Of a stretch of 36,715 nucleotides of DNA, positions 554 through 28,344 are shown in pieces. The position numbers and the translations under genes were made by a program. Every line of letters starts with the position of its first letter. Position 1 is the stretch's first letter. The stretch lies in the IMG/VR virus record IMGVR_UViG_3300035666_000086, positions 1 to 36,715 of that record; one strand, written 5' to 3'. Below the pieces are notes generated by a model, which saw only the letters and a program-made list of their open reading frames with translations, was not told where the DNA came from and did no database searches. This stretch comes from a virus.

Positions 554-1855
554 TTAATGCAGATCAACCCAACTAGAGCCATCGTAAACTTGAAGTTTTG
601 AAGTGCTGCTATTAAAAATTACCATTCCAGCGAGGGCAGTCAGCGCATCGCGTTGCGCAGTGCTGATGCCAACGTATTGCACTGCTCTAGTTGTGCTTTC
701 AAATCGCACTAAGGTGCTTGCAGATGGCGTAGTAGTGGCTCCTATTGTTACTCCACCGCCGTTTCCTTGTATCCAAACCGGGCCTTTTTGGCCTCCCCCA
801 GAACCATCGCCACCGGAAATACGGACGATTCCACCGTTTGCGGAGCCGCTTGTTCCTGCTGCATCGCCGCCATACAAAAATAACGTACCACCCGTAGCAG
901 CAGCTCCGGTTGAAATTGATGGGGCGCTAGAAATAACTAAATCGCGTCCGGCTACGTTGCCCGGCTTATTGGGGGCATAAATTTGTGAAACGCGCATCCC
1001 AGAAAATGCGCCGCCGGAAAGCATATTGTCCGTACCAGAATCTTTGAAAAGTATATTTTCGTTGCTTACAAAAATGTTGTTACGAATGGAATTGCTTGAC
1101 AACTCCAAATCTGAAGTTGTGTTTGATTCAAGATAAACGCCAATATAATTGGAAATACCGTCAATATGCAGACCAACAACATCATTTTCAGCGCACGTTA
1201 CGTTTGTCCAAAAATGATATCCAGCAGACGGATTTCCGTACTGGCGAATTCCGTAGTTACCGTTAGCGTTGCAAACAACAGTTTCAAAATAGCAGACGTT
1301 GCAGACATTAACGCCGGTTACATATCCGGTTCCGTCAAGGCCGATTCCATCTCTACCATTTGATGAACAATTAACATTTTGTAGAGTTACTCGAAACGTG
1401 CCGGCAGTCGGATCGCCCGTTGCGGTAGTATTGTCAAAATAAATTCCGTCTTGCCCGTGCAATAAAGACGTTACGTTTCGCAAAGTAACGTAAGACGCGC
1501 TGCGGATCACAATACCGCTTCCGCCATTACCGGGTTTTCCCCATACGTTAAATTGGGCAAGAGTACATCCAGCAGCCGCTCCGGTAATTAAAATACCGTC
1601 AAAGTTTCCTTGCTTGTAAAGCCTAGTGAACTCAGATTGACCAATCACATCGACGTTTTGATTCCAAACAAGTTGCGAAGTAAAAAGGTAATCTCCAGCC
1701 GGTATGTACAACGCCTTTTTAACGGCGGCCGCAGCAGCATAGGCCGCGTTGAGCGCAGCCGTATCGTTTGCGACACCGTTTCCAACAACCCCATAGTCAG
1801 CAGCATTGATGAACTGTCCATCAATCATCGAATATGTGGCTTTAGTTAACGACAT
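554..1855 (-). CDS. Tail spike-like protein with pectate-lyase-type beta-helix
   Basis: The 433-residue product starts with FINAADYGVVGNGVANDTAAL (about residues 15-34), the signature at the start of the phage pectate-lyase-3 type right-handed beta-helix. Regularly spaced Asn/Gly/Ser-rich strands follow to about residue 280, then a Gly/Ser/Ala-rich region. The C-terminus has the RAVQYVGISTAQRDALTALA...GMVIFNSSTSKLQVYDGSSW pattern that caps many phage fibre proteins. It lacks the N-terminal KISxL virion-binding motif found in the next two genes upstream, so it may attach through another fibre or a different site. The likely role is host surface glycan binding or cleavage. No catalytic residues could be assigned. 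It is the last gene before the scaffold promoter. Confidence 0.7.
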   Translation of the reverse strand: MSLTKATYSMIDGQFINAADYGVVGNGVANDTAALNAAYAAAAAVKKALYIPAGDYLFTSQLVWNQNVDVIGQSEFTRLYKQGNFDGILITGAAAGCTLAQFNVWGKPGNGGSGIVIRSASYVTLRNVTSLLHGQDGIYFDNTTATGDPTAGTFRVTLQNVNCSSNGRDGIGLDGTGYVTGVNVCNVCYFETVVCNANGNYGIRQYGNPSAGYHFWTNVTCAENDVVGLHIDGISNYIGVYLESNTTSDLELSSNSIRNNIFVSNENILFKDSGTDNMLSGGAFSGMRVSQIYAPNKPGNVAGRDLVISSAPSISTGAAATGGTLFLYGGDAAGTSGSANGGIVRISGGDGSGGGQKGPVWIQGNGGGVTIGATTTPSASTLVRFESTTRAVQYVGISTAQRDALTALAGMVIFNSSTSKLQVYDGSSWVDLH

Positions 1856-9017: not shown

Positions 9018-10543
9018 TACGCGCCCATCCAACTACTAGTTGCGCCGCTACCACGCTCAACAACAATTCGACGAGGTTTTTCCCGCATCTCTCGACTGGC
9101 TACCGGATAAGCAAACGTAACGGCTAACGCATCGGCGGCGTCTGGAGAGGCAAGCCCTCTGGATTTCATGTCCTTTTTGCTTTCCAACAAAATGGCCCCA
9201 GACGAATTAAACTTTTGGTGCGGCCCAGTCAAATCGCTCTTAAGACTTCTATCATGAGGCAGGCTTGCTGATTGCAACCAAGCCTTCATTTCACCCCATA
9301 TCTCAGAACGCTTATTCTGGTACATTGCAGGGTTCTTAGCCTTCCAGCCAAAGTTTACCCCACGCACCTTATACCGCTGCTCTTTTAGCCGGTCAAGTAT
9401 CCCGTAACCCAGACCGCCCTCGTCGATGACAGTGAGCGCCGGGTTGAACTCCTCGATCGCGTCGATGACGCGCCCCACCGTTGTCATCGTGTCATCGCCC
9501 CGGTAGCGCCGGATAGCGATGACATCACGCCCCTGCCTTACGACGATGACTGTTGAGTCTGCTCCGCCTCGCGCTGGATCGACTCCGACAACGCGTGGCG
9601 CTGTCTCGTCCTTGTACCGAGGCCTTGCCATAGCCTCCTCCACAACTCGCGGAGCAATGAACTGGTCGTCGCCGTCTGAAGGAAACTCTCCGTAGACCTC
9701 AACCTTTGCCTGGCTACTATCTGCTCCATACTCAGCGATGATTTGCTCGTAGACGGCTTTATCCGTATCTTCAACTTGCCGGGCGTCGATGCTTTGCGTC
9801 GTCCAGAACTCTCTTTTCGCGTTGAAACACTCATAGAAATACCCCTCGTTGCGTCGCGGGTTGCTAAAGGCCAGCCAGAAACGATGCGGCGTGTTCTCCG
9901 TAAAGAAGCCCGCCGTCACCGACCAGATAGGGTCAGGAATACCACTCGCCTCGTCGAAGATGACCATCACGCCGTCATGGTTGTGCACACCGGCGTACGC
10001 GTCGGGGTTCTCCTCCGACCAGAGCCGCCCTTCGACCGACCAGTAGCGTGTGCCTTTCTTAAGGTCTCTCTCGACGATCTCCGCGAGCCATTTGGCCGGC
10101 ATGACGCGTGTGGCCGACACCTCGAACCAATGACTGTTGAGCAGGAGCGCCAGCCACTTAGTCACCTCGGCCCAGGTGACCGAGCGTAGCTGCGCCTCGC
10201 TGTTAGCCGACACGATGGTCGTCGAGCCGATGCGCGTCGAGAGCATCCACAAGATGAGCCAACTGACGAGGGCGGACTTACCGATGCCGCGCCCCGAGGC
10301 GGTGGCCATGCGCAACACCTCGTAGGAGGTGGCCGTTTTGTTCTTAGCGATGTGCGCGGCGATGTCCCGCAGCACCTTGCGCTGCCACCGCCTCGGGCCT
10401 TCAAAGTGCTCCAGCGGCGTACCCTTCTGCCCCCACGGGAAGGCGAACAGCACGAACGCCTCGGGGTCGTCCTTGACTTGAGGCGCCCACAAGCGCGCCA
10501 TGATCGCCTGCTCGTCGTCGGCGCTATAGATTGGCAGTTGCAT
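9017..10543 (-). CDS. terL: Terminase large subunit
   Basis: The 508-residue packaging motor has a Walker A motif, TASGRGIGKS (residues 81-90, Lys89), and a Walker B motif, VMVIFDEAS (about 192-200, Asp197 Glu198). The RNase H-like nuclease domain follows, with VGVDPARGGADS (Asp322), TVIDEGGLGYG (Asp374) and SPDAADALAVTF near the C-terminus, which together supply the metal-binding acidic residues. It drives ATP-powered translocation of DNA into the prohead through the portal and cuts the concatemer. It overlaps the small terminase gene upstream by 20 bases and the HNH gene downstream by 1 base. Confidence 0.93.
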   Translation of the reverse strand: MQLPIYSADDEQAIMARLWAPQVKDDPEAFVLFAFPWGQKGTPLEHFEGPRRWQRKVLRDIAAHIAKNKTATSYEVLRMATASGRGIGKSALVSWLILWMLSTRIGSTTIVSANSEAQLRSVTWAEVTKWLALLLNSHWFEVSATRVMPAKWLAEIVERDLKKGTRYWSVEGRLWSEENPDAYAGVHNHDGVMVIFDEASGIPDPIWSVTAGFFTENTPHRFWLAFSNPRRNEGYFYECFNAKREFWTTQSIDARQVEDTDKAVYEQIIAEYGADSSQAKVEVYGEFPSDGDDQFIAPRVVEEAMARPRYKDETAPRVVGVDPARGGADSTVIVVRQGRDVIAIRRYRGDDTMTTVGRVIDAIEEFNPALTVIDEGGLGYGILDRLKEQRYKVRGVNFGWKAKNPAMYQNKRSEIWGEMKAWLQSASLPHDRSLKSDLTGPHQKFNSSGAILLESKKDMKSRGLASPDAADALAVTFAYPVASREMREKPRRIVVERGSGATSSWMGA

Positions 10544-11003
10544 TAATAGGTTCCGTAGTGGCGTACGCGAGGGCGGTGGGCTCGGCGTGCGTCAGTGCAG
10601 CCGGAGTAGACGACAATACTCGGCCGTTAATGACGCGAGACTCCGCTTCTTGCAGTGCCGCGATGACGCTGATCTGCTGGGTGACATCGACCTGAACTTG
10701 CTGCTTCGCCACCCAGCCGTGCACATGTTGTAGGAGCGAGAGCGCAGCCTTGCTATCGCCATTGCGAGCCGCCTCACGCAACTGACCTGCCGCCTCAGCC
10801 TCAGCGTCGGCACGGCCTTTGGCCTCGGCCATCTCGGCGAGCGGGTCCATTTGACATAAGCGGCGGTATTCGGTGGGCAGCATGCCCGCTGCGAGCGCAA
10901 GGCTATCACCTTTAAGCCCGAGCGCCGCCGCGTCATAAATTGCTTGAAGCCGCGATTCAGTCGCCTTGATCTCGCGGGGCTCAAACGGGAGCGATTTGAA
11001 CAT
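10524..11003 (-). CDS. Putative terminase small subunit
   Basis: The start was taken as ATG at 11003 (MFKSLPFEPREIKATESRLQ). A GTG at 11078 would add 25 residues that look non-native. The roughly 159-residue protein is helical. Residues about 20-50 (AIYDAAALGLKGDSLALAAGMLPTEYRRLC) read as a helix-turn-helix of the kind that recognises pac/cos DNA. An Ala/Glu-rich oligomerisation helix follows (AEAKGRADAEAEAAGQLREA), then NGDSKAALSLLQHVHGW, a pattern frequent in small terminases. It is the first gene of the leftward late operon, directly upstream of the large subunit. Identification rests on position plus the helix-turn-helix and helical pattern. Confidence 0.7.
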   Translation of the reverse strand: MFKSLPFEPREIKATESRLQAIYDAAALGLKGDSLALAAGMLPTEYRRLCQMDPLAEMAEAKGRADAEAEAAGQLREAARNGDSKAALSLLQHVHGWVAKQQVQVDVTQQISVIAALQEAESRVINGRVLSSTPAALTHAEPTALAYATTEPINATANL

Positions 11004-11411
11004 GGCGCAACCGTAGCGTGAACGGAAATAAAAGACAAGCGATGTGCAGGGTCGTCCTGCCGGGAGGCCGCGATCCACAACAACCGTGTGACCTGTGTGC
11101 CGGGGCGGAGTGCCTTAGATGGTGGGCCATGGCCCTTCAGCTACCTCCCGGTCGCTACGTGCGCATCACGTCAGACATCGCCACACAAGAATAGCATAAG
11201 GCTTTGGCTTACGGGCTGATGGGGAAAAAATAAAAAATTTTTTGTAACCCCTCCGATACAGGTACATGCCACCGCGCGGGTCGGCCCACCCCATCAATTG
11301 CAAATGATTCCCGTTTGCATCCGGTCGCGGCGTTGTGGGCAATCGGCCACGACCCACGACGCCCGCAAGCTCTCAGCCAGGACGCATGCGCGCCGCGTGG
11401 CCGCGTGGTTC

Positions 11412-11458
11412 TGTGGGCAATGTGGGCAATCGAAAACAAATTGCCCACATTGCCCACA
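11412..11458. repeat. Perfect 19-bp inverted repeat built from paired iterons
   Basis: TGTGGGCAATGTGGGCAAT at 11412-11430 is mirrored exactly by ATTGCCCACATTGCCCACA at 11440-11458, around a 9-base spacer (CGAAAACAA). Each arm is two head-to-tail 9-bp units. It could be a high-affinity protein site for a dimer of dimers, or a cruciform at the origin. It is not followed by a T-run, so a terminator is unlikely. Confidence 0.9.
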
Positions 11459-11547
11459 AACTTGGGGGCGTGGGCATTTGTGGGCAATGTGGGCAATTAA
11501 AACGTTGCCCACCAAGGTCGCTAAGCGTCTACAGTTATTCCTTACAG

Positions 11548-11581
11548 ATTATATACTGTACGCCTATACAGTACATATAAT
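11548..11581. promoter_or_regulatory. Perfect LexA (SOS) box flanked by divergent TATAAT -10 elements
   Basis: TACTGTACGCCTATACAGTA at 11554-11573 has the CTGT-N8-ACAG core and perfect TACTG/CAGTA half-sites of the enterobacterial and beta-proteobacterial LexA operator. A TATAAT reads outward on the minus strand at 11548-11553 and another outward on the plus strand at 11576-11581, so a bound LexA dimer would cover the spacer of both promoters. The -35 regions are weak. Predicted effect: host LexA holds down transcription in one or both directions until DNA damage. The box match is direct; regulation is inferred. Confidence 0.75.
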
Positions 11582-11763
11582 TTTTATACTGTTAAATAAA
11601 AACCATTACCCACATTACCCACAACGTACGAATCCATCTATTTTTCTAGTCACTTGCGCGTGGGCAATTTGTCTCGATTCGATTGCCCACCGAATGACCC
11701 ACATTGCCCACACCTTGCCGCTGTCCGCAGAATGGTCGTGTTCTGCTATTTGTAAGAAAATGC

Positions 11764-11826: not shown

Positions 11827-12012
11827 ATGCAACCACGAATCAAAATGTATCGGAATGACTGGTCGGCCATGCTCGAAAAAGCTGGCATGTGGTACTGCGT
11901 ACAGGTGCGCAATGCCGCCGGCGATATTCACGACAAGGTGCGCTGTGATGACTACCGCATGGCGCTCGACTACTGGCGCGCCTTTAACGCCATTGCGAGG
12001 GCTGCAAAATGA
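11827..12012 (+). CDS. 61-residue hypothetical early protein
   Basis: This is the first gene of the rightward early operon, starting at ATG 11827 with AGAGG upstream. The 61 residues (MQPRIKMYRNDWSAMLEKAG, then MWYCVQVRNAAGDIHDKVRC) are compact and mixed alpha/beta, with aromatic residues and two cysteines. No family is recognised. It overlaps the next gene by 4 bases (ATGA). First genes in early phage operons often alter host functions, but nothing in the sequence indicates a target. Confidence 0.65.
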   Translation: MQPRIKMYRNDWSAMLEKAGMWYCVQVRNAAGDIHDKVRCDDYRMALDYWRAFNAIARAAK

Positions 12013-12158
12013 CTCGCTACTCCCACGCCCTCGCCGCGATCGCTTTACCTTGTCTCATTCTGGCCCCGTTCGTTGCCGCCGATGTTCACATGCAAGTGTG
12101 GGCAGTCGGCACCGGCACGGCGCTCGCCGCTGTCATCTTTCGCCTTGCAAACGATTGA
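12009..12158 (+). CDS. 49-residue small membrane protein
   Basis: It starts in an ATGA overlap with the previous gene and ends before the clamp gene. The sequence has two hydrophobic segments, about residues 7-24 (ALAAIALPCLILAPFVAA) and 28-46 (MQVWAVGTGTALAAVIFRLA), separated by a short polar loop, so it is probably a two-pass inner-membrane peptide. The coupling to its neighbour supports it as real. Possible roles include superinfection exclusion or membrane tethering; no family is recognised. Confidence 0.6.
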   Translation: MTRYSHALAAIALPCLILAPFVAADVHMQVWAVGTGTALAAVIFRLAND

Positions 12159-12212
12159 CCGACTACCGTAAACTAAACTCTGACAATCAACTACACTAAA
12201 GGACACTCAACC

Positions 12213-12902
12213 ATGTACACACTTACTGTCTCTCTCGCCACCCTGCGCGCCGCCCGTACCCACGCCGCCGAAAAAGACGTTCGTTATTACTTGCAAGGCG
12301 TCTATCTGGACACTGTGGCCGGCAAGGTAGTTGCTACCGACGGGCATCGCCTGTTCGTTGCCAACGCGCGCGGCGTCAAGTCCAACTATCCGGCTGTCAT
12401 CGTGCCTAACGAAACGATCGACGCGGCGCTAAAGCAATTCACGGGCGAGTATGCACGCGGCAAGTCACTCGGCGCCGTAGACGTGACCGTGACGATCGAC
12501 GACAACCATATAGCCATCGGTACACCCACGGGCTCAGTCACGGGCAAGGCGCTCGACGGCCGGTTCCCGGAGTGGCGCCGTGTGGTGCCCAAAGCTGAAG
12601 ACGTAGGCGATCAGGTGCCGGCTGTGCTTAACACTCAGTACCTTGCCGACGCATGCGAGGCGCTCTCGATCGCGCGCAACCTGTCCAAAAAGGCCGCGAG
12701 TCAACACGCCATCCGTATCCACATGCGCGGCGAGTTCCCGACCGTTGTTACGGACAATACGATCGGCGTATTGGCGCTCGTTATGCCCATGCGCAACGAC
12801 CTCGGCGCTGACGTGGCGCGCATGGCGTGCCGCATGGCGCACGACGACGCCCTCGCCTACAGCGCCGAGACGGCCGCCGACGTGGCCGCCGAGGCCGCCT
12901 AA
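12213..12902 (+). CDS. Shortened DnaN-type DNA sliding clamp
   Basis: The start is ATG 12213 after AAAGGA. The 229-residue protein aligns by eye with the beta clamp of bacterial DNA polymerase III, but only from its second domain. KDVRYYLQGVYLDT (residues 21-34) matches DVRYYLNGMLFET of E. coli DnaN, and ATDGHRLFVAN (41-51) matches ATDGHRLAV. GKALDGRFPEWRRVVPK matches SKLVDGRFPDYRRVLPK, and VMPMR (about 190-195) matches the C-terminal MPMRL. So domain 1 and the first half of domain 3 appear to be absent, and a 34-residue Asp/Ala-rich tail follows MPMR. It should encircle DNA and tether the phage polymerase, but its ring stoichiometry must differ from the host clamp. Confidence 0.85.
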   Translation: MYTLTVSLATLRAARTHAAEKDVRYYLQGVYLDTVAGKVVATDGHRLFVANARGVKSNYPAVIVPNETIDAALKQFTGEYARGKSLGAVDVTVTIDDNHIAIGTPTGSVTGKALDGRFPEWRRVVPKAEDVGDQVPAVLNTQYLADACEALSIARNLSKKAASQHAIRIHMRGEFPTVVTDNTIGVLALVMPMRNDLGADVARMACRMAHDDALAYSAETAADVAAEAA

Positions 12903-15749: not shown

Positions 15750-15768
15750 CTGGCTACTTGACGACTGA
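15706..15768 (+). CDS. Possible 20-residue membrane peptide
   Basis: GTG at 15706, nine bases after AAAGG, opens a 20-codon ORF (MTYLLLTIGAAILVDWLLDD) that is a single transmembrane stretch ending in two aspartates. It overlaps the preceding ORF in another frame and converges with the primase-helicase stop at 15754. The ribosome binding site and hydrophobic pattern make it worth recording, but it could be chance. Confidence 0.3.
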   Translation: MTYLLLTIGAAILVDWLLDD

Positions 15769-18048
15769 CAATGCAGGCGCCTTGTCTTCGGCCATGTGCC
15801 GGAGCTCCGACTTCGTGAGGCTCGCAAACTGCGGATGGCAGAACACATGCTTACGGGTCGGCCACTCGCGCGAGTGCAAGCGCCCACAATCGACCCACTC
15901 GGCCTCGCGTAGCGCGTGCATGAGCGCGGGTGATACGACCTTGACGCCTGAAGGCGCAAGGCCTTGCAGCCGGTCACAGATGGCATAGAACGGCGAGGCG
16001 ATCACGCCCTTGGCAAAGTCACCCTGCCGCGTGCGGATCATCTCGACTAGGAACGACTCGGCCGTGCTCATGGCCGACTCGATCATAATCATCTTCGCCT
16101 CAGTCATCGGCGGTGCGGCGCCGGGGTTGAAGGCCGACACGTCACGGGCATCAAGCCACGCGGCGACGGATTCAAAGCCGCCGGACTTGTACCACGCCCA
16201 GATGTGCTCGGCGTCTTCGGGGCGCATGCGCTCGGCCTCAGACCACACGACGAACCAGCGGCGATCGTCTCGCGGTAGGCTGATCGCTGCGCGCTCGTTT
16301 GAGAACGACAGTACGAACACACGATTAAGCGCGTCGTACGGATGCATGCCCTTACGGTTGACCGACAGTAGTTCAGGCGGCGCGGCGATTACGGGCTTTA
16401 GACTATTCTCAAGCGCGCGACGGTCTTTGGCCTCGGCCTGTCTGAGCTCGTTGATCACGATCACTTCAGACTCCAGCGCGTAGCCCCACTGCGAATTTAA
16501 TTCCTCGTTCTTGACGATGGCCACGTTAACGTGCGTGTTGCCACCGATCGACCACAGGAACGGCGCCCAGAGCGTGTCCTTGCCACTGCCAGGGCGGCCG
16601 GCGTGCAGCACGGCGTGGTTGATCTTTTTCTCGGGGTGCTGGCGCTTGTAGGCCATAACGTTAAGCACATGCTCGCGCTCAATAGGGTCGGGGATCATGC
16701 GCTCGGCGTGCTGTAGCCAGATGGATACGTCGCCCTCGGCGGCGGTCGGCCGCGCGTCGCGCCAGCGGTTGCCGTAGACGAGGCCGTTGCGTGAGACAAG
16801 GATCGACTCGCCAGCGGCGAACGTAACGCCGACCAACGAGTGAGCGCCCATCGCCTGACGGTTCTCGTCAAAGCAGATGGAGGCTTCAATGTTGCGGTTC
16901 GAGCGGATGCTGCGGCACGGGATGTGACGGAACAGCGCGTTAAACGTCTGCCGGCTGATCTCGCGGCGGTCGATCATGTCAAAGTAACTGTCATCGTCTT
17001 GGATGTAGGCAAAGCGTTCGTACCATTGCGATCGCTCGACGCGCCCAAGCTCGCGGCGCTCAACCTCCTTGATCACCTTGGCGGCTTCGTCGGGATACTC
17101 AGTAGTGGGAGTAATTTTACTCAACGCGGCCTCCATCTTCTTTGCGAGCAGGTCATCGCGCAGACCATAGCCCGTCTTGGGGCCGCCCTCGGCCTCGACC
17201 CATCGCAAAAACTTCTCGCTGTTCCAGTCACCACAGTGACCGTGGAAGCAGGTGTAGCTACGGGATACGGGATTGTACCGCCCGCCGGGGTCGCCCGTCG
17301 TGTGCGCCGCATGGTTAGGACACACTACGCCGTACCAGCCCTCGCCGTTGGCCTTATCGAGCAGCACCCCGCGCTCGCGGACCCACTCTAGCACCGTGTC
17401 GAGGCCATCGTCCTCAAGGTATACGCCGCGTATATACGCCGTATCAACAGGGCCGGGCGTGACGCCCAACGCTTGACAAATATGGGCCAGTGTGTACTCG
17501 CGCTCAGGGTGGAACTCGGTCAGGATGGAGGCGAAGTTGTGGCGCCCTTCCTTTAGGTTGATGCTGCCTTCAATGCGAAAATTGCGCACCGGATTGATCG
17601 CGCCGGGGTCGGTGTAGCCGGCTTCAGCGATCGCCTTGATCGCCGCGCTGAACTCGCCCTTGGTCGGCTGATCATCGAGGCCGAACGTGTAGCCCCACTG
17701 ATAGTTGCCGGGGCTCGTCTCCATCTTCCACGTCGGCTCCAGCGGCGGCACTTTGGACTTGGTGCCGACATCATCGAGCACCATGAACGCGACGCGCTCG
17801 CAGTTGGCCGCAGAGGCCGAGAGGCCATCGGCCATGCGATCGACGATGAAGCAACCGGTGTTGGCGTACCACGCGCCTTGCGGACGGCGCTGGTAACGGT
17901 CGAACAAAGCCGGCGGCCAGGTGTACTTGAGCGTACCGTCGTTGTGTGCAAGCTGCTCGCCGTTACGCATGAGCGGCTTCTGACGGACGAACAGGATAAC
18001 TTCCCCCTCGGGGGCGATGCTGTTAAGATAATCGGCGAATCTCATCAT
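15754..18048 (-). CDS. Primase-helicase (zinc finger, DUF5906-type helicase)
   Basis: The start at 18048 has GGAG seven bases upstream. The 764 residues combine an N-terminal primase-like domain (MVLDDVGTK at about 89-97 is an acidic motif of the RepB/archaeo-eukaryotic primase type) with a zinc finger (C243, H246, then CFHGHC at 267-272) typical of DNA-binding primases. The C-terminal superfamily 3-like helicase has Walker A GRPGSGKD (484-491) and a Walker B-like EVIVINELRQ further on, as in DUF5906 phage helicases. It would unwind and prime the phage DNA. It is last in the leftward operon, after the polymerase, and converges with the early genes. Confidence 0.85.
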   Translation of the reverse strand: MMRFADYLNSIAPEGEVILFVRQKPLMRNGEQLAHNDGTLKYTWPPALFDRYQRRPQGAWYANTGCFIVDRMADGLSASAANCERVAFMVLDDVGTKSKVPPLEPTWKMETSPGNYQWGYTFGLDDQPTKGEFSAAIKAIAEAGYTDPGAINPVRNFRIEGSINLKEGRHNFASILTEFHPEREYTLAHICQALGVTPGPVDTAYIRGVYLEDDGLDTVLEWVRERGVLLDKANGEGWYGVVCPNHAAHTTGDPGGRYNPVSRSYTCFHGHCGDWNSEKFLRWVEAEGGPKTGYGLRDDLLAKKMEAALSKITPTTEYPDEAAKVIKEVERRELGRVERSQWYERFAYIQDDDSYFDMIDRREISRQTFNALFRHIPCRSIRSNRNIEASICFDENRQAMGAHSLVGVTFAAGESILVSRNGLVYGNRWRDARPTAAEGDVSIWLQHAERMIPDPIEREHVLNVMAYKRQHPEKKINHAVLHAGRPGSGKDTLWAPFLWSIGGNTHVNVAIVKNEELNSQWGYALESEVIVINELRQAEAKDRRALENSLKPVIAAPPELLSVNRKGMHPYDALNRVFVLSFSNERAAISLPRDDRRWFVVWSEAERMRPEDAEHIWAWYKSGGFESVAAWLDARDVSAFNPGAAPPMTEAKMIMIESAMSTAESFLVEMIRTRQGDFAKGVIASPFYAICDRLQGLAPSGVKVVSPALMHALREAEWVDCGRLHSREWPTRKHVFCHPQFASLTKSELRHMAEDKAPALSVVK

Positions 18049-18071: not shown

Positions 18072-18099
18072 GCCCGGCCTAACCCGCCGGGCTTTTTTT
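18072..18099 (+). terminator. Rho-independent terminator oriented rightward, inside a leftward operon
   Basis: GCCCGGC (18072-18078) pairs perfectly with GCCGGGC (18086-18092) around a 7-base loop and is followed by seven Ts (18093-18099), a canonical terminator on the plus strand. Both neighbours, polymerase and primase-helicase, are on the minus strand, where the same hairpin has its A-run in front and no U-run behind. It therefore most likely stops rightward (antisense) transcription that reads through from the early operon. Confidence 0.75.
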
Positions 18100-20059
18100 A
18101 GCCCTTGCCATACCGCTCCATGACCTTAACCTCGGCCTTGAGCGGAAACCCCACGGCCCAATCAGGAGCCGTACACATTACCGTATTCAAAAGTTCTGCA
18201 ACGACCTCGGCGGCCTCGTTAACACATTCGATAACGATTTCGTCGTGAACGTGCAGCACAGTACGTAATCCTTGACGGTCTAACTCACGCAGACTGTGCC
18301 GCAGCAAATCATTGGCGGTAGCCTGTGTGATGTTCTCGCAAGCCAAGCCTTTCCACAGACGCGCACGCGGCCATTCAGTCGCATCTTGCGCGGGTTTCCA
18401 AGCGGCTTTGAGATAACTCACGCCGTCCGACTCCAGACGGGCGAACGGATAACATAGCACGCGGCCCGAGGGCAGGGCGTACCATAGGTGTTGGCCGTCG
18501 TACATGTACGCCACGCGGCCAGCTTTGAACTCAGTGTTGACATTGCGCATGGCGCGGGTGTAGGCATCTTCTAATCTTTGCCAGTAGCGCACCGCCCACG
18601 GGTTCGCGCGACGCCAGCGGTCAACGATACGCTGCGCATCGGCCTCGCTCATGTTGACGCCATACGCGCGGCCCATGGCGCTGAACGCACCGACGCCGCC
18701 GGCAAAGCCTAGTGAGAGGATGGCGACCTTGCCAATCTGGCGCTGCTCGTCGTTGACCTCGGTGGGCCCGACGCCGTAGATGCCAGCGGCCTCACGCTTG
18801 TAAATGTCACCCCCTGTGCGGAAGATTTCAAGGACGGGCTCGGCGAGTGGGTCGGCTGAGAGCCACGCGGTCGCACGCGCTTCGATCGCCGCCCAGTCGG
18901 CCACGACGAACGCGTTGCCTTTAGTCGGGATCAGCGCAGGGCGTAGCATGGACTTGAGCACGTCCGTGACGCGGATTCCGTATCGCGGAACGATCGCATG
19001 CCCGCGCACAAGCGCCTGGCGTACGGCCTCGGGCTCCTTGTGGCACTTGCGGGTGAAGTTGTGGACCTGCGCGCCGTAGCTCGACGCGCGGCCTGTGGCG
19101 CTGCCGCCAGCAAATATGAACGCACCGCGCACGCGAGCGTCTTCGACATCGGCGAGTTGTTTCAAGCGGTTGAACTTAGCGACTGACGAGGCCCATAGGT
19201 CATCCGCGCACTGCACGACATCGGCCACGTCGGGCGGCACCTCGTCGGCGTTGTCCATGGCGAGCAGGTTGGCGCGCACGGTCTTGTCGATGCTGTACTT
19301 CTTTTCGCCGTCCTTGTAGACGGTCATCAGCTTCTTAGCCTCGGGGCCGACGCGCTCCAGCACCCACTCGCGCATCTTGGGCGAACGGACGCTCGTAATG
19401 ACGCCGTGCGTGACCTCTGCGACGATCTTCTCGATCTCTTGCAGTTCGTCCTCGGCGTAGCGCACGGCGGCCTCGCAAAGCGGCACGTCTACCTTAACGC
19501 CCGCGTCGTTGATCCGCTCGTTGACGTGGTAATCGGCAAGCTCGATGTCTGACAGGTCGCGCATCGCCTTGCTGATCTCGCGCATGGCGCGCACGTCCTG
19601 CTCGCAGTAGGCGATCATCTCGGCCATCAGCGCAGGGTCGTTGTTGAACGTCCCGTCCGCACGCGGGATCGAGAGTTGTCGAATCAACTGCGAGCCGCGA
19701 TGGTCCTTTTTCATCTTAGAGGAAAGCGCACGGCCAATATCCTCAAGGCTACCGGGCAGACAGTTGGCCCGTGCCTGTGCGGCCGTGCAGTAAAACTGTG
19801 TCAAGTCGAAGTTGATCTGACACACGTACCAAAAGATAAGCCGCTCAAACGCGGCGTTGTGCGCGCGTATCTGGCCCTTGAAGTTAGCCACGCGCTCGGG
19901 GAACGGGTACTTGGGCAACCATGTTGCCACCTCGCCGTCATCGAACGCGTAGGACATGCAAAGCACCTCGGTGCTCAAGTCCTGCGCATAGTTGTACGCA
20001 CCGGCTGACGGCAGGTCGCACCGGCTACGGGTTTCAAAGTCAATCCAAAGTATTGCCAT
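18098..20059 (-). CDS. Family A DNA polymerase with 3'-5' exonuclease
   Basis: I chose ATG 20059; a TTG three bases earlier is possible. The 653 residues begin with a DnaQ-like exonuclease: IDFETRS (Asp7, Glu9), HNAAFERLIF (67-76) and YCEQDV (151-156, Asp155). The polymerase core has TGRASS (322-327), motif A VADWAAIEAR (Asp388), motif B RQIGKVAILSLGFAG (440-454, Lys444) and motif C HVHDEIVIE (Asp606, Glu607). All key catalytic residues are present, so it should be an active proofreading replicase. It has no 5'-3' exonuclease domain. With the phage clamp and primase-helicase it forms a dedicated replisome. Confidence 0.95.
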   Translation of the reverse strand: MAILWIDFETRSRCDLPSAGAYNYAQDLSTEVLCMSYAFDDGEVATWLPKYPFPERVANFKGQIRAHNAAFERLIFWYVCQINFDLTQFYCTAAQARANCLPGSLEDIGRALSSKMKKDHRGSQLIRQLSIPRADGTFNNDPALMAEMIAYCEQDVRAMREISKAMRDLSDIELADYHVNERINDAGVKVDVPLCEAAVRYAEDELQEIEKIVAEVTHGVITSVRSPKMREWVLERVGPEAKKLMTVYKDGEKKYSIDKTVRANLLAMDNADEVPPDVADVVQCADDLWASSVAKFNRLKQLADVEDARVRGAFIFAGGSATGRASSYGAQVHNFTRKCHKEPEAVRQALVRGHAIVPRYGIRVTDVLKSMLRPALIPTKGNAFVVADWAAIEARATAWLSADPLAEPVLEIFRTGGDIYKREAAGIYGVGPTEVNDEQRQIGKVAILSLGFAGGVGAFSAMGRAYGVNMSEADAQRIVDRWRRANPWAVRYWQRLEDAYTRAMRNVNTEFKAGRVAYMYDGQHLWYALPSGRVLCYPFARLESDGVSYLKAAWKPAQDATEWPRARLWKGLACENITQATANDLLRHSLRELDRQGLRTVLHVHDEIVIECVNEAAEVVAELLNTVMCTAPDWAVGFPLKAEVKVMERYGKG

Positions 20060-20068
20060 CAAAGAATC

Positions 20069-20088
20069 GGGGGCCGTTGCCGACCCCC
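20069..20088. other. GC-rich hairpin just before the polymerase start
   Basis: GGGGGCCG (20069-20076) and CGACCCCC (20081-20088) form a near-perfect 8-bp stem. On the minus-strand mRNA the loop is GCAA, a stable GNRA-type tetraloop. It lies 9 bases before the polymerase ATG, where no Shine-Dalgarno sequence is visible. It may lower polymerase translation or partly terminate the message after the SSB gene; the following ATTCTTT is a weak T-run. Confidence 0.5.
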
Positions 20089-20094
20089 GCTCCC

Positions 20095-20736
20095 TTACGC
20101 AGCGCGTCGCCGACGAGCCGAAGCGGCCGGTGGGGGCTCATCGCCCTCCGGTGCTGACGGACCCTCACCTTCCATGGACACCCATTCGACGATCTCAAAG
20201 ACCGGCGTGTAGATGCGGCCATAGGACTTGTGCTGGTAGTGCTCCTTCTTCAGAACCACGACCGGCACCGGCTTGCTCTGGTCACGCTCGACCTGGGCTG
20301 CGATGGCCGCCGCCAAGGCCTGCACGGCACGCTTGCCGCCCACCGACGTAGTGCTGTAGCGAGCCTCAAGGCCCGCGTCCTCACCCGTGATGCACTTCAA
20401 GCTCATGCCGACTTGCGTTTCCCAACCCTTCTTGCTCTGCGGGGGAGCCGGTTCGAGTTCCGGCAACGGCTGTGACACCGACACCATCTTCTCGCCAAGC
20501 ACCTCGCCGTCGCCCCAAGCAATGAAGCCGTGGACGAACGAGAAAGGATTAACTGCCCACTTGCTGTTTTCCTCAGCCTCGGTTTGATCCGCGCCAAAGA
20601 CCCAGTGGCCCGTCTTATCCATCTTAAGGATCGCCGACCCGACCGGGCCGACTTCCACTTCGATGTTACGCAGGGCGGTGGACAGGGAAGACACAGCGGG
20701 GAGACCCGCCTTACTGAACGCAGTGATATTAGACAT
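20095..20736 (-). CDS. Putative single-strand DNA-binding protein
   Basis: The start at 20736 follows AAGGAG. The 213-residue protein has an N-terminal beta-rich part (GLPAVSSLSTALRNIEVEVG, KMDKTGHWVFGAD), the segment KKGWETQVGMSLKCITGEDA in the middle, and a strand-helix end (PVPVVVLKKEHYQHKSYGRI). The C-terminus is disordered with a basic cap (ARRRRAA). Phage operons that run DUF2800 nuclease, this gene, then DNA polymerase usually carry a T7 gp2.5-like single-strand binding protein here. I assign it mainly by that gene order; the family is not recognised from motifs. It lacks the acidic tail common in SSBs. Confidence 0.5.
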   Translation of the reverse strand: MSNITAFSKAGLPAVSSLSTALRNIEVEVGPVGSAILKMDKTGHWVFGADQTEAEENSKWAVNPFSFVHGFIAWGDGEVLGEKMVSVSQPLPELEPAPPQSKKGWETQVGMSLKCITGEDAGLEARYSTTSVGGKRAVQALAAAIAAQVERDQSKPVPVVVLKKEHYQHKSYGRIYTPVFEIVEWVSMEGEGPSAPEGDEPPPAASARRRRAA

Positions 20737-20747
20737 TACTCTACTCC

Positions 20748-21872
20748 TTACACTAGTTTAGAAAGGGCCGCAGTTAACTGCTGCCCGATTTGCAACACGG
20801 CGGGCCGGGGATCGCTCTCCGGCGCCAACGTGGTGCCCGATGAGACGGAGATAATCTGATCGTCCGGCATGGGGAGCTTCAGCTTCTTCAGCTTTTTCTC
20901 CGCCTGTGCTGGCGAGATCAAATACGTCTCCATCACGTCAGTCATGGACAGGTGCTTCAAGAGCGCCTGTTTCGCTGATTCTTCGTCCTTCCATTGACGC
21001 GTCGCGCGTTTCTGGACGAGCTTGTAGCCCGGTACAGGATTGCCTGACTCTAACACTTGCAGGGCAAGCGCACGCAAGTCGCTGATCCAATCTTCAAGCA
21101 CATCCGCACGCTGGAGCATGTCGCCGAGTTGCGTGACATCTAGCTCCTTAATCTGCGTCTGCGTCGCGCGATCGACCGCGCCCGTCATCAGCGGGCAAAT
21201 GGGCTTGGCTGCACACCAGCGGCAGTGATCGCCGATCTTAAGCGGTGCGTCAGGCTTGGCCGACTGTTTAACGGCATACGTTAACTCGCGCTCAAACTGC
21301 CGCACGCGATCGAACGATGTCACCCATCGCTTGACCTTCGGCGGCTGGACGATGATGCACTCGATTTCTTTGGCGTCCTTGAAGACCCATTCCAGTGCCG
21401 GCGTACGGATCGCCGCAGCCGTGTAGAATAGTAACTGAGGGTTCTCCTCAGCCTCGACGGCCACCCCGTCACCAAACTTCCAATCAAGGATAATAGCGCG
21501 ATCCCCAATGCGGCCAATAAGATCGCAAGAACCAAAGACACCCGGAATAAGATCACCGAAGCCGACGGTTTGTTCGACTGCGAATTCAAGCTGTGCGTCT
21601 GGGTCGATTTCATTGATGGCGTCCAGTGCAGGGCGAACCTTCTCGTCGATCAGGTCGCCGGTGAGTTTGATGCCGTTGTACTCCATGTCGAGCACATGGC
21701 GCAGTTCTTTGTCACTGCCGAGCATCTCGGCCATGACGTTATGCAACAGCGTGCCTTCGTCGGCGTACTTGCTGCTTGGCTTAGGCGGGACTTTTTGGCA
21801 GAGCGCGACACTGCCAGGGCAGTTGATCACGCGTTTGGCGGTGGACCCGCCGACGATATTGCTATGACTCAT
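20748..21872 (-). CDS. DUF2800 Cas4-like PD-(D/E)XK nuclease
   Basis: The start at 21872 has AAAGGAG upstream. The 374 residues show the Cas4/RecB-type nuclease pattern: INCPGSV with a first cysteine, GTLLHNVMAEML with the motif I histidine, GSCDLIG with the motif II aspartate, and AIILDWKFGDG (Asp-x-Lys). A C-terminal iron-sulfur cysteine group follows (CRWCAAKPICP). DUF2800 proteins sit at the head of many phage replication operons and probably act as exonucleases in recombination or end processing. It is the first gene of the leftward operon, driven by the promoter at 21902-21930. Confidence 0.85.
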   Translation of the reverse strand: MSHSNIVGGSTAKRVINCPGSVALCQKVPPKPSSKYADEGTLLHNVMAEMLGSDKELRHVLDMEYNGIKLTGDLIDEKVRPALDAINEIDPDAQLEFAVEQTVGFGDLIPGVFGSCDLIGRIGDRAIILDWKFGDGVAVEAEENPQLLFYTAAAIRTPALEWVFKDAKEIECIIVQPPKVKRWVTSFDRVRQFERELTYAVKQSAKPDAPLKIGDHCRWCAAKPICPLMTGAVDRATQTQIKELDVTQLGDMLQRADVLEDWISDLRALALQVLESGNPVPGYKLVQKRATRQWKDEESAKQALLKHLSMTDVMETYLISPAQAEKKLKKLKLPMPDDQIISVSSGTTLAPESDPRPAVLQIGQQLTAALSKLV

Positions 21873-21901
21873 CGAGGACTCTCCTTTAGTGTGTTTGCGC
21901 T

Positions 21902-21930
21902 AGCCTAGAGCCGGCTGATTTACTTGTCAA
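21902..21930 (-). promoter_or_regulatory. Strong sigma70-like promoter of the leftward replication operon
   Basis: On the minus strand a perfect TTGACA (21925-21930) is followed after exactly 17 bases by TAGGCT (21902-21907). It lies in the 87-bp gap between divergent genes and would give a short leader before the DUF2800 start at 21872. Confidence 0.65.
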
Positions 21931-21952
21931 GCATTGTTTTATCGCATAGGAT
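21924..21952 (+). promoter_or_regulatory. Possible promoter of the VRR-NUC/SNF2 operon, overlapping the leftward promoter
   Basis: TTGTCA (21924-21929) and TAGGAT (21947-21952) are 17 bases apart on the plus strand. The -35 box occupies the same bases as the leftward promoter's TTGACA, so the two would compete for RNA polymerase. The start of transcription would fall almost at the ATG (21960), which weakens the call. Confidence 0.35.
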
Positions 21953-21959
21953 TCTCAAC

Positions 21960-22247
21960 ATGAGAGAGAAGACGATCGAGGAGTATTTGACCTGGGCGGT
22001 CGAGCGCGCCGGTGGCGTGACGTTTAAGTTCCGCTCGCCCTCGCAGCGCGGTGTTGCCGATCGAATCGTGTGCTTGCCGAATGGCGAGACGTGGTTCGTG
22101 GAACTCAAGGCCGAGCGCGGGCGACTGTCGCCGCTCCAAAAGGTGTTTGCGTCCGTGATGGCGCAGACGAATCAGAAGTACAAAGTGCTGTATCGCATAG
22201 AGGAAGTCGATGCTTTCGTTGCGTCCGTATCAAGAGAGCGCGGCTGA
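21960..22247 (+). CDS. VRR-NUC domain nuclease
   Basis: I chose ATG 21960 with AGGA upstream; longer in-frame starts would run into the promoter. The 95 residues are a single VRR-NUC domain: MREKTIEEYLTWAVERAGGV, KFRSPSQRGVADRIVCLPNG with the catalytic aspartate, then ETWFVELKAERGRLSPLQKV with the E-x-K pair, and a final strand. Stand-alone VRR-NUC proteins are common beside phage SNF2 helicases and are predicted to be structure-specific or Holliday-junction nucleases. It overlaps the helicase gene by 38 bases. Confidence 0.9.
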   Translation: MREKTIEEYLTWAVERAGGVTFKFRSPSQRGVADRIVCLPNGETWFVELKAERGRLSPLQKVFASVMAQTNQKYKVLYRIEEVDAFVASVSRERG

Positions 22248-23547
22248 CTTCCTGTACGAGCACGACCGCGCGATGGTGCTGGCGCCTGTAGGCGCTGGCA
22301 AGACGGCGCTCACCCTCACGGCCATGCAGGACGCGCTGGAGGACGGCGTGGTGTCGCGCTGGCTGGTCGTGGCACCGCTACGGGTAGCCCACCACGTATG
22401 GCCGGTCGAGGCGGCCAAGTGGGCACCCGGCCTCAAGCTCGCGGTAGCGATCGGTGCGGCCACCTGGCGGACTAAGGCGCTGGAGTCGGATGCCCGCGTG
22501 GTGGTCACGAACTACGATAACTTGCAGTGGTTGGCCAAACAGAAACTTAATTTCGATGGCGTAGTGTTCGACGAGCTTACGCGCCTCAAGAACCCCTCGG
22601 GCGTGCGGTTTAAAGCGATTCTGAAGGCGCTGGAGCCGGTCAAGATTCGGTGGGGGCTGACGGGCAGCTTTACCTCAAACGGCCTAGAGGACGTGTTTGG
22701 GCAATGCAAGATCATCGACCAAAGCCTACTCGGCCGCAGCAAGGGCGCCTTTTTGCAGCAGTATTTTATCTGCCTCAACCGGGAGTATGGCGAGTGGATA
22801 CCCGCTACCGGCGCGTTAGCACAGGTCATGGCGCGGATCAAGCCCGCGACGTTTGTGTTAGAGCCTGGCGAATACAGCGACAAATTGCCGCCCTTGCATA
22901 CGGTGCAGATGCGCTGCGACCTGATTGACCGCGAGCCTTACGAGAAGATGCGCAAGGACTTCATGGTCGAGTTTCCTGACGCCAAGGCCATCGCCGCCAA
23001 CGCTGCGGCGGTTACGTCCAAGCTACAGCAGATGGCCTCGGGGTTCGTCTACGAGACGACCCGCACGGCGTCCGATCGACCGGGCAAGTTCGACGTGTCG
23101 CAGAAGACGGTGTGGTTTTCTGACCACAAGTTAGAACTGCTAGATGAACTGTTGGAAGAAAACCAACGGGCCAATACGATAATCGTTTACAATTACCAAG
23201 CCGAGCTCGCTGAGTTGCAGCGGCGATACCCCAAGGCGGCGACGATCGACCAGCCGGGTGTGATCGACGCGTGGAACCGAGGCGAAATCGAGTTGCTGTT
23301 AATTCACCCCAAGTCCGCAGGGCATGGGCTGAACTTGCAGCACGGCGGGTGCCGGATGGTGTTTCTGTCGTTGCCTTGGTCGTTGGAAGAATACGAGCAA
23401 GTCATCGGTCGATTACACCGCAGCGGCCAGCGGCACGACGTATGGGTGTACGTGCTGCTGACGGACAAGACGATTGACGAGAAGATTTGGATGGCACTGC
23501 GCGACAAGCGCGCGATGTCGGACGTAGCAATGTGGGAGCTAAAATGA
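22210..23547 (+). CDS. SNF2-type superfamily 2 helicase
   Basis: The 445-residue protein shows the ordered helicase motifs: motif I APVGAGKT (25-32), Ia VVAPLRVAHHVW, motif II VVFDELTRLKN (118-128, with DELT in place of DExH), and motif III GLTGS (149-153). Motif V (HPKSAGHGLNLQHG) and motif VI (EYEQVIGRLHRSGQ, about 400) lie in the C-terminal half. This is the compact SNF2 form found in phages, probably remodelling DNA-protein complexes or branched DNA during replication or recombination with the VRR-NUC nuclease. It shares an ATGA overlap with the next gene. Confidence 0.9.
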   Translation: MLSLRPYQESAADFLYEHDRAMVLAPVGAGKTALTLTAMQDALEDGVVSRWLVVAPLRVAHHVWPVEAAKWAPGLKLAVAIGAATWRTKALESDARVVVTNYDNLQWLAKQKLNFDGVVFDELTRLKNPSGVRFKAILKALEPVKIRWGLTGSFTSNGLEDVFGQCKIIDQSLLGRSKGAFLQQYFICLNREYGEWIPATGALAQVMARIKPATFVLEPGEYSDKLPPLHTVQMRCDLIDREPYEKMRKDFMVEFPDAKAIAANAAAVTSKLQQMASGFVYETTRTASDRPGKFDVSQKTVWFSDHKLELLDELLEENQRANTIIVYNYQAELAELQRRYPKAATIDQPGVIDAWNRGEIELLLIHPKSAGHGLNLQHGGCRMVFLSLPWSLEEYEQVIGRLHRSGQRHDVWVYVLLTDKTIDEKIWMALRDKRAMSDVAMWELK

Positions 23548-26490: not shown

Positions 26491-28344
26491 TTACGGGGCC
26501 ATTTGATTGCGTCGCGCCTCAGCCCCAGCTAGCGCGTTTGTTACCACCACGGCCGGTGCGGCCGCACGTTGCGCGGCAGCGCCACCAGCACGGGCAATGC
26601 CCGTAACGCCTTGTACCGCGCCAGCGCGACGCTGCGCGGCCTCAAGGGCTAGCGCCGCCGACTCCGGCTGCAACATGTCGGTAGCGATCTCAATGGCGAG
26701 CTTGCGGTCGATTTTGCCCGCAAGCCGCTTGAGGATGGCGTTGGCCACAGTCGTCACGCGGTTGAGCAACGTCGGCAACTGCGCGCCACCGGCCGCTTCA
26801 ACCAAGAGCTCTGTACCGGCGCGCTCGGCGCTCGGACCAGCAGGACGGGCTGCGCGAGCTTGCTCGCGGTACTTAGCCTGACGAGCCAAGTCGCTGCGGA
26901 TGTCCTCAACAATCTTGACTTGATCCGGCGTCAACACGTCAGAGAGCTTCTCGTAGCGCGGTGCGCCGACGGTAGCCCGTTGAATCGTCTGCGGTGCGGC
27001 CTCGACAGCACCGGCAAACGCGGCGGGGCGTAGCTTCTGCTCGCCTTGCAGCGCGGAGGTCAACTTGCTTTCAAGAAACTGACCGACTTCCATCTGATTG
27101 ATGGGCTTGCTGCGTGCTTGGAACGTGCTGCGGGCCGTGCCGTACTCCGGCACTTGACCTTCCAGCCAGTTGATGAAGTCTTTGCGAGTGCTTGCGATTT
27201 TGCTGGCTTCAACTTTGCCGATACCGTACGTGGCGGGGTTCTGGATAAGGTCGTCCAGCGCCAACTTGACGTAGTGCATGTCGGCAGCGGTGTAGTTGCC
27301 GCCCGAACCAAACGATGCGCCTTCTTCAGCGGCCAAAGTTTTAGCGCGTTCAAACGCTTGTTTCACTGACGGCCGCGCCTGCAAACTTTGCAGGGTGGCG
27401 TCTTCTACCACAGGCTTTGCGCCAGCTTGTCCGTACAGCAGCCGCGCTTCAGCCGCGCGAGCGTTGCGAGCCGCAGTAAGCTGCGCCTCAGTGCCGCCCA
27501 CCTGACGCAGCGACGCCGCGCGAGCAGCATCTTGCGCCTGACGGCGAGCCATGTATTCAGACGGCAGAATCTTCTCAGCCGACTCTTGCAGCGCAGAGAA
27601 GCGCGTTGCACCCACCGGCGCCGCAGCCTCACCGGCGGTTGGCACCGCACCCGGCACGATCTCAGGCTGATTGCGCAGTGCGTTGATGATCTCCGGTGCG
27701 CGGCCTTCAGCGGCTTCTAACAGCACGTTGGCTTTACCGCCGATGGCAGCACGTTCTAAAGCATTGACGCCGGCGCGCCCTGCAATAGCAACGGGAGCCG
27801 TGACTACACGCGTCGGGTCCGTAACCCGCGAGACGGTGCCGAGTACTTGACCGGTGCGGCCTGGCGCCGTAGCGGCCGCCGCGCCCGTCAATGTCGATAC
27901 GTCAGCGGCAAAGCCGACTGGATCGGTAGCAATCGTGTTTTTTAGCGCCTCAACGCTGCCATAGCGGTCGCGGTATACGCCGCCTACCGCGTTAGCTTTG
28001 TCAATAAACTCTTGTGCAATATCGGGTCGAGCCATCCACTCGCGCGGGATGAACCGGGCATAGGCGCCGGTCAACACTTCGCCAAGTTGCTCTAGCGTCT
28101 CACGCGGTCGGGTCACAGCCGTATACAGGCTGCCCAACATCTGCATGCCGCTTTCGGGGATATTGCTGATAGCCTCGCGGCCAACCTGCGCCCAAGTGCG
28201 GCCAGCGGGCTCTGCGCCTACCGCGCCGCGCCCTGTAGCGGGGGCTTCCCATACAACCTTGTTAGGGTCAATGGGCGCGTCTTTTTTAGTCTTAGCAGGT
28301 TTAGCAGGCGTCTCCCACTGAACCTTGTTTGGATCAATCGGCAT
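26491..28344 (-). CDS. Putative DNA ejection protein, P22 gp16-like by position
   Basis: I chose ATG 28344 (MPIDPNKVQWETPAKPAKTK) with GGGAG eight bases upstream; a TTG start at 28371 would add nine residues. The protein is 617 residues against 609 for P22 gp16 and holds the same last position of the ejection set. It has two 'PIDPNKVxWE' repeats at the start and Ala-rich helices throughout (FAADVSTLTGAAAATAPGRT). The C-terminal third is a long Ala-rich helical region. It would be carried in the virion and pass into the cell envelope with the DNA. Identification is by size, order and composition. Confidence 0.65.
   Translation of the reverse strand: MPIDPNKVQWETPAKPAKTKKDAPIDPNKVVWEAPATGRGAVGAEPAGRTWAQVGREAISNIPESGMQMLGSLYTAVTRPRETLEQLGEVLTGAYARFIPREWMARPDIAQEFIDKANAVGGVYRDRYGSVEALKNTIATDPVGFAADVSTLTGAAAATAPGRTGQVLGTVSRVTDPTRVVTAPVAIAGRAGVNALERAAIGGKANVLLEAAEGRAPEIINALRNQPEIVPGAVPTAGEAAAPVGATRFSALQESAEKILPSEYMARRQAQDAARAASLRQVGGTEAQLTAARNARAAEARLLYGQAGAKPVVEDATLQSLQARPSVKQAFERAKTLAAEEGASFGSGGNYTAADMHYVKLALDDLIQNPATYGIGKVEASKIASTRKDFINWLEGQVPEYGTARSTFQARSKPINQMEVGQFLESKLTSALQGEQKLRPAAFAGAVEAAPQTIQRATVGAPRYEKLSDVLTPDQVKIVEDIRSDLARQAKYREQARAARPAGPSAERAGTELLVEAAGGAQLPTLLNRVTTVANAILKRLAGKIDRKLAIEIATDMLQPESAALALEAAQRRAGAVQGVTGIARAGGAAAQRAAAPAVVVTNALAGAEARRNQMAP

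Follow-up and report, generated by a model that had tools for sequence, protein, structure and literature searches.

The window, which is the whole of the 36.7-kb virus contig analysed here, carries P22-type portal and terminase genes, and a dense array of short repeats occupies the non-coding gap between its gene for the small terminase subunit (terS, minus strand, starting at 11003) and its first early gene (plus strand, starting at 11827), which are divergently oriented (Table 1). Eight exact copies of TTGCCCACA/TGTGGGCAA all lie within 11334-11712, with none elsewhere in the window, and are accompanied by two copies of TTACCCACA (11606 and 11615), three units with one mismatch (11505, 11659, and 11683) and one TGACCCACA unit (11695), making 14 units in total. 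A preliminary description of this DNA had counted about 15 units within 380 bases, a figure reached only if a unit with two mismatches at 11469 is admitted. The exact 9-bp period that it reported for tandem pairs is borne out by five such pairs (11412/11421, 11441/11450, 11479/11488, 11606/11615, and 11695/11704), and its perfect inverted repeat is present, although the best one measures 22 bp (11439-11460 with 11477-11498) and not 19 bp. As it also remarked, one variant stands a single base from the DnaA box (TTACCCACA against TTATCCACA). The commonest 9-mer, the rotation ATTGCCCAC, reaches 10 copies within 400 bp, compared with three at most for any 9-mer in 40 dinucleotide-preserving shuffles of the whole window. 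The promoter-like match in the AT-rich centre of the array is no more than expected by chance, GC skew along the window has no clear switch at the array, and Rfam and tRNA scans gave nothing.

Table 1. Features of the window at and around the repeat array
Feature	Position	Strand	Basis or remark
Small terminase subunit gene (terS), left of array, adjacent to TerL	10524..11003	-	Tested as binder of the array, unsupported
Iteron array, ~14 units T(T/G)(G/A)CCCACA, both orientations	11334..11712		Proposed replication origin; geometry common to >200 relatives
Outer inverted block: tandem pair 11412-11429 (TGTGGGCAA strand) and facing pair 11441-11458 (other strand)	11412..11458		29-bp pair offset also found in relatives
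Tandem pair TGTGGGCAATGTGGGCAA, left border of AT-rich centre	11479..11496	+	117/118-bp offset to right-hand pair recurs in relatives
AT-rich centre, proposed unwinding region, with promoter-like match	11514..11605		Largest internal gap
LexA-type box CTGTACGCCTATACAG (CTGT-N8-ACAG), within AT-rich centre	11556..11571		Sequence match
Tandem pair (TTACCCACA)2, right border of AT-rich centre	11606..11623	-	Window sequence
Right block: + unit 11659; - units 11683, 11695, 11704 (offsets 24, 12, 9)	11659..11712		Recurring offsets
First early genes, right of array: 61-aa ORF and sliding-clamp-like gene (12213-12902)	11827..12902	+	PF02767 6e-10; PHROG processivity factor 1e-19
Primase-helicase (DUF5906, D5/SF3-type), proposed initiator binding the array	15754..18048	-	PF19263 3.7e-9; PHROG DNA primase; fold matches; co-variation
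Wing-loop codons, residues 725-731 (HSREWPT), co-varying with the unit	15856..15876	-	Tree test, window scan, structure model
DNA polymerase A	18098-20062	-	Replication module
213-aa protein, probably DUF2815 SSB type	20095-20736	-	Name from position; no Pfam match
DUF2800/PD-(D/E)XK nuclease	20748-21872	-	Replication module
Small ORF, probably VRR-NUC type	21924-22247	+	Name from position or size, no family match behind it
SNF2 helicase	22210-23547	+	Replication module

Layout and unit of the array across related phages

An 18-mer scan of IMG/VR returned at least 119 loci, most of which show clusters at the same offsets as in the window (9, 12, 21, 24, 29, 44/45, 68, 77, 89, 117/118, and 126/127) and share its gene neighbours, with TerL ~70 to 97% identical. 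The same 18-mer, searched against 257 Gb of bacterial and archaeal genomes, matched at 105 loci, of which many were isolated sites or minisatellites and only a few formed mixed-orientation clusters, so that the array is a phage feature and not a general genomic one. Examples of such clusters are L173 and L214, found in bacterial contigs (Paraliobacillus; uncultured Bacteroidales). Scans with primase proteins as queries yielded several hundred further loci, two of these scans being reserved for testing. A de novo search for 9-bp tandem arrays detected one in 249 of 345 non-redundant loci (205 under strict criteria) and in 145 of the 168 loci that span both the primase gene and terS (126 under strict criteria), leaving ~14% of the latter without an array by this search.

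Units found in relatives include TTGCCCACA, TTGTCCACA, TGACCCACA, TAGCCAACA, TGACCCAAA, TTGCCTACA, TGGTCCACA, TTGCCCGCA, TGACTAACA, and TGACGTGCA, and the consensus units across phages number 34, with 19 different cores (positions 4-8). Arrays composed of other units retain the 9-bp tandem and the offsets of 43/44, 117/118, and 126/127 bp; the right-block offsets 44-24-12-9 recur as well, including in L013, a locus without match to the terminase of the window. Inside one phage the unit is mostly uniform (91-99% match to its own consensus per position, for units called within one mismatch). The unit sequence is hypervariable between phages while the geometry and place of the array stay constant. 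The repeat block, compared by BLAST with named phages, gave chance-like matches only, Vibrio phage 1.236.O was examined and has no array, and searches of the open-licence literature found nothing relevant on the unit or on this origin.

The largest internal gap of the arrays has a median length of 109 bp and an AT content of 0.60, versus 0.44 for the locus, being AT-richer in 188 of 205 arrays. An oriented element, GCGA(C/T)T(TAAA), occurs in 67 of 157 AT-rich gaps of relatives and on the other strand in only three, mostly 15-23 bp from the terS-side unit; it is possibly part of an unwinding element. Of 205 loci, 59 have a box of the type CTGT-N8-ACAG within their array, compared with 20 copies in 2.6 Mb of flanks, an enrichment of ~100-fold that suggests SOS control or control by a phage LexA-like protein. 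From the position of this box in the centre of the array in the window, a tie to the SOS state of the host is suggested for the divergent promoter and perhaps for initiation.

The array travels with the rest of the replication module (18098..23547). Five loci (L033, L030, L106, L013, and L108) without match to the TerS, TerL, and portal of the window keep its primase (57%), its polymerase A (69-72%), its unit, and its geometry, and ~20 further loci with more than 1.8 kb of sequence beyond the array also have no window-type TerS. Conversely, L230 (MW202483) has a similar terminase and portal (64-71%, TerS 64%), together with a primase 50% identical and a different unit. Since the L033-type loci keep the unit without the terminase and L230 presents the converse, the unit follows the replication module and not the terminase. 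The clamp gene is replaced or divergent in many array phages; in the window, it encodes a DNA polymerase III beta-clamp-like protein (PF02767) near the array of a phage with a family A polymerase, and its PHROG 3007 label, RusA-like, is probably a misnomer.

Some loci carry other repeat blocks. In L230, palindromes (TGTTTATGTAAACA/GTTTACGTAAAC) make up a second block, at 28160-28600 towards terS, the TTGGTAGTG array lying at 28780-28990. L231 (DSL-LC05) combines a similar TerL and structural genes as in the window with other, PolB-type, replication genes, and a different repeat block, ACCCAGTGGGT, sits at the same place (33430-33975, ACCCAGTGGGTCA); it was left out of the count for this system and is possibly another origin type swapped in. 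L087 combines TGTGGGCAA units, regularly arranged with 24 and 43 bp in alternation (9865-10289), with a TerS 40% identical, without match on the contig to a primase of the window's type and with no initiator found there.

Co-variation of the unit with a loop of the primase-helicase

Changes of the unit were compared on the tree with changes in the protein columns of the primase, polymerase A, DUF2815, DUF2800, TerS, and TerL, using Fitch parsimony and an approximate null. Among these six proteins, z=3 was exceeded in the primase alone, at columns H725 and P730, with its residues 721-731 (721, 726-728, and 731) also supplying most of the next-ranked columns. In a leave-one-out scan restricted to relatives less than 90% identical, the 11-residue primase window 725-735 predicted the unit with a mean distance of 1.03, compared with a median of 2.15 (sd 0.20) for all windows and with 1.69-2.18 for the best window of any other protein. 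Since the proteins change more slowly than the unit, whole-protein identity was a weak predictor for every protein tested, and the signal appears only at the level of residues.

Several base rules could be read from residue-base tables of 129 dereplicated loci. At residue 727, Arg goes with C at base 8 in 108 of 108 loci and His in one of one, and Ala, Gly, Ser, or Lys with A or T in 20 of 20; of 13 changes of base 8 on the tree, eight coincide with a change of residue 727, against 1.3 expected. Residue 726 is related to base 7, Thr occurring with G or T in six of eight loci and Ser with A in 119 of 121 (S726-T, z=5.2), residue 725 to base 4 (z=4.8) and residue 730 to base 5 (z=4.6), and a T at base 4 (35 loci) was found only with Lys725 and Asp or Glu730. 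Bases 1-3 are poorly explained by the wing residues, and base 9 likewise falls outside the rules. In an out-of-sample test on 55 unused loci, representing 17 distinct wing/unit combinations and with a flat prior on base 8, the base-8 rule held in all 17 combinations, K725 and D730 went with T4/C6 in five of five and base 4 was otherwise not T in 12 of 12, and Ser726 occurred with A7 in 16 of 17. Three off-template loci also fit the rules.

Close pairs (85-97% identity) localize the change to the same loop: wing differences per site amount to 0.444 when the core differs and 0.074 when it is the same, a six-fold difference, as against 0.110 and 0.090 in the rest of the primase. Thus, L106 and L448, 97% identical, have HSREFA with TTGCCCACA and NTRELT with TGACGTGCA. 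Identical wings with different majority units were found in the pairs L323/L285, L330/L474, L092/L481, and L320/L326, and all four arrays inspected among them (L285, L320, L474, and L092) are mixed. These contain two or three unit types and are possibly in mid-transition between specificities.

The protein concerned matches the C-terminal region of NrS-1 by HMM (3e-11; 6k9c), and its full-length model (pTM 0.50) matches, by Foldseek, the NrS-1 helicase region (7e-18), SaPI5 PriRep1 (7pds, 4e-7), and also poxvirus D5/E5 helicases. In the AlphaFold2 model of the C-terminal part, helices 687-697 and 706-715 are followed by strand 719-724, loop 725-732, and strand 733-737, from which a winged helix with the variable residues at the tip of the wing is predicted. 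The model has this helix-helix-wing order, and its fold matches to winged helices are weak (best E 0.15, not significant); the C-terminal domain alone gave no Pfam match, and a profile search with it against the PDB returned nothing.

A candidate iteron origin and competing readings

What the computations show is an array of conserved geometry and position that is linked to the replication module and whose bases co-vary with residues of the primase-helicase. We consider it highly probable that the array is the replication origin of a P22-like podovirus-type phage, with units that serve as iterons for the D5/SF3-type primase-helicase which the phage itself encodes. Three properties that characterize iteron origins are found at this locus: short repeats at fixed spacing in a non-coding region, an AT-rich, putative unwinding region between them (0.60 versus 0.44), and a predicted cognate initiator whose specificity matches the repeats, as judged from sequence co-variation. 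Physical binding, ring loading, and origin firing, which we infer from sequence, could proceed as follows. The C-terminal winged helix (~residues 680-740) of each subunit would read one 9-bp unit, mainly via the wing loop 725-731, with Arg727 contacting the G opposite C8, residue 726 setting base 7, and residues 725 and 730 setting bases 4-6. A tandem pair would position two subunits side by side, and the facing clusters that flank the AT-rich centre would load helicase rings able to melt it, after which polymerase A of the phage would extend.

The preliminary description had taken the repeats for an array bound by an initiator or a regulator, and was probably right; it could match them to no known binder, and the co-variation now points to the phage primase-helicase. 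Conservation in relatives, whose absence it had named as a refutation, was found for spacing and place in more than 200 loci, the unit sequence itself varying between phages. Its DnaA-box-like reading found no support. That these are host DnaA sites of a host-initiated phage origin appears extremely improbable, as no TTWTNCACA occurs on either strand anywhere in the window, units stand several bases off the DnaA box in most relatives that share the geometry (TAGCCAACA, TGACGTGCA, TGACCCAAA, and TTGCCTACA are far from it), and the unit tracks the wing residues of the primase. We rejected this candidate on the lack of a DnaA box in the window and the drift of the unit in relatives, even though a single base separates TTATCCACA from TTACCCACA and from the TTGTCCACA of relatives, and L419 carries one TTATCCACA. 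To our knowledge, exact 9-bp abutment and a 9-12-24-44 spacing are not oriC-like.

Among the other readings, the primase-helicase might bind the array mainly as an autoregulatory operator of divergent early and late promoters, the true origin being elsewhere. We regard this as unlikely: the array does span a divergent intergenic region and contains a LexA-type box, and binding to an operator or to an origin would co-vary alike, but D5/SF3-type helicases, to which the protein belongs, act as initiators in SaPI and P4, the clusters flank an AT-rich centre, and an asymmetric element of the GCGATTTAAA type is found repeatedly close to one border. That the array is a cos/pac packaging site recognized by TerS, the start of whose gene is ~330 bp distant, is very unlikely. 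Its syntenic place upstream of terS (median 264 bp between the array edge and the TerS match in 167 loci) speaks for it, but where TerS, TerL, and portal are unrelated the array stays with the replication module, L230 has a different unit despite its TerS, and L033 has the unit of the window without such a TerS. In addition, TerS has no cluster of co-changing columns, and the best of its windows is a poor predictor of the unit. We rejected the packaging site as contradicted by these module swaps and by a repeat specificity that does not follow TerS. We give equally little credence as to DnaA sites to an operator array whose repressor, a fast-evolving phage protein of the heteroimmunity type, would come from the variable early region, since no single early gene was found common to all array phages and primase residues alone predict the unit, also out of sample; diversification of units between close relatives, as in the operators of heteroimmune phages, and the LexA-type box would fit it.

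Related replicons and a probable re-coding of the iteron

Phage P4 has 8-bp type I iterons, and no sequence match was found between its alpha protein and the primase-helicase of the window. A winged helix of P4 alpha binds the origin repeats, although this protein differs in its bacterial TOPRIM-type primase (PMC4234260). The pri-rep-ori modules of SaPI and PICI (SaPI5 PriRep1 and SaPIbov1 Rep) resemble the proposed origin in several respects. They share the D5/SF3-type primase-helicase fold; in PICI origins, as here, two iteron sets flank an AT-rich region (PMC6092414), and the C-terminal domain of the initiator reads the iterons in SaPI Rep (PMC7581432), as predicted for the phage of the window. 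They differ in that their origin lies immediately 3' of rep, whereas here more than 4 kb and early genes separate the array (11334-11712) from the end of the primase gene at 15754. SaPI and PICI are also helper-dependent satellites, unlike the phage of the window, which encodes its own terminase, P22-type portal, tail genes, and polymerase A, and their iterons contrast with the abutting 9-bp units in both orientations found here, whose specificity has diversified within one protein family.

The SCCmec protein Cch2 is likewise a Primase_Cterm/D5-type helicase with an A-family polymerase encoded nearby, and its C-terminal domain binds direct repeats (PMC7581432, PMC10061031), a role predicted for the same domain here. 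As a difference, the iterons of its putative ori are 5 nt long (AAGTG) and follow its gene directly on the downstream side, and no variable recognition loop is described for it in the literature covered. NrS-1 primase-polymerase, the closest structural match of the helicase part (6k9c), recognizes an 8-nt sequence of which its genome has just two copies, and no iteron array is described there (PMC7102993). The nearest parallel for a change of specificity is PLE of Vibrio cholerae, where iterons and the specificity of the initiator are swapped jointly among close relatives and an origin-directed nuclease of phage ICP1 selects for change (PMC8263062). By contrast with the primase-helicase, PLE RepA is a RepA_N family initiator for which helicase activity is not predicted (PMC7145576), and its system has few specificity classes and longer iterons.

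We find it likely that this large phage clade keeps one origin architecture and repeatedly re-codes the iteron via the seven-residue wing loop of its initiator, array and loop switching together. Interference between co-infecting relatives, satellites, related replicons, or origin-directed nucleases is a plausible driver, by analogy with PLE and ICP1 (PMC8263062). For iteron replicons, how an initiator and a dozen scattered binding sites change specificity together is an old open question, and here hundreds of natural solutions occur in one family, with the determining residues in one loop and several base rules legible, so that this question can be tested with few mutants. If true, such re-coding would constitute a natural, readable protein-DNA recognition code with many mutually incompatible, and probably orthogonal, origin-initiator pairs. 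The LexA-type box suggests a link between the control of phage replication and host DNA damage, and the origin of many uncultivated phages would become predictable from one protein loop.
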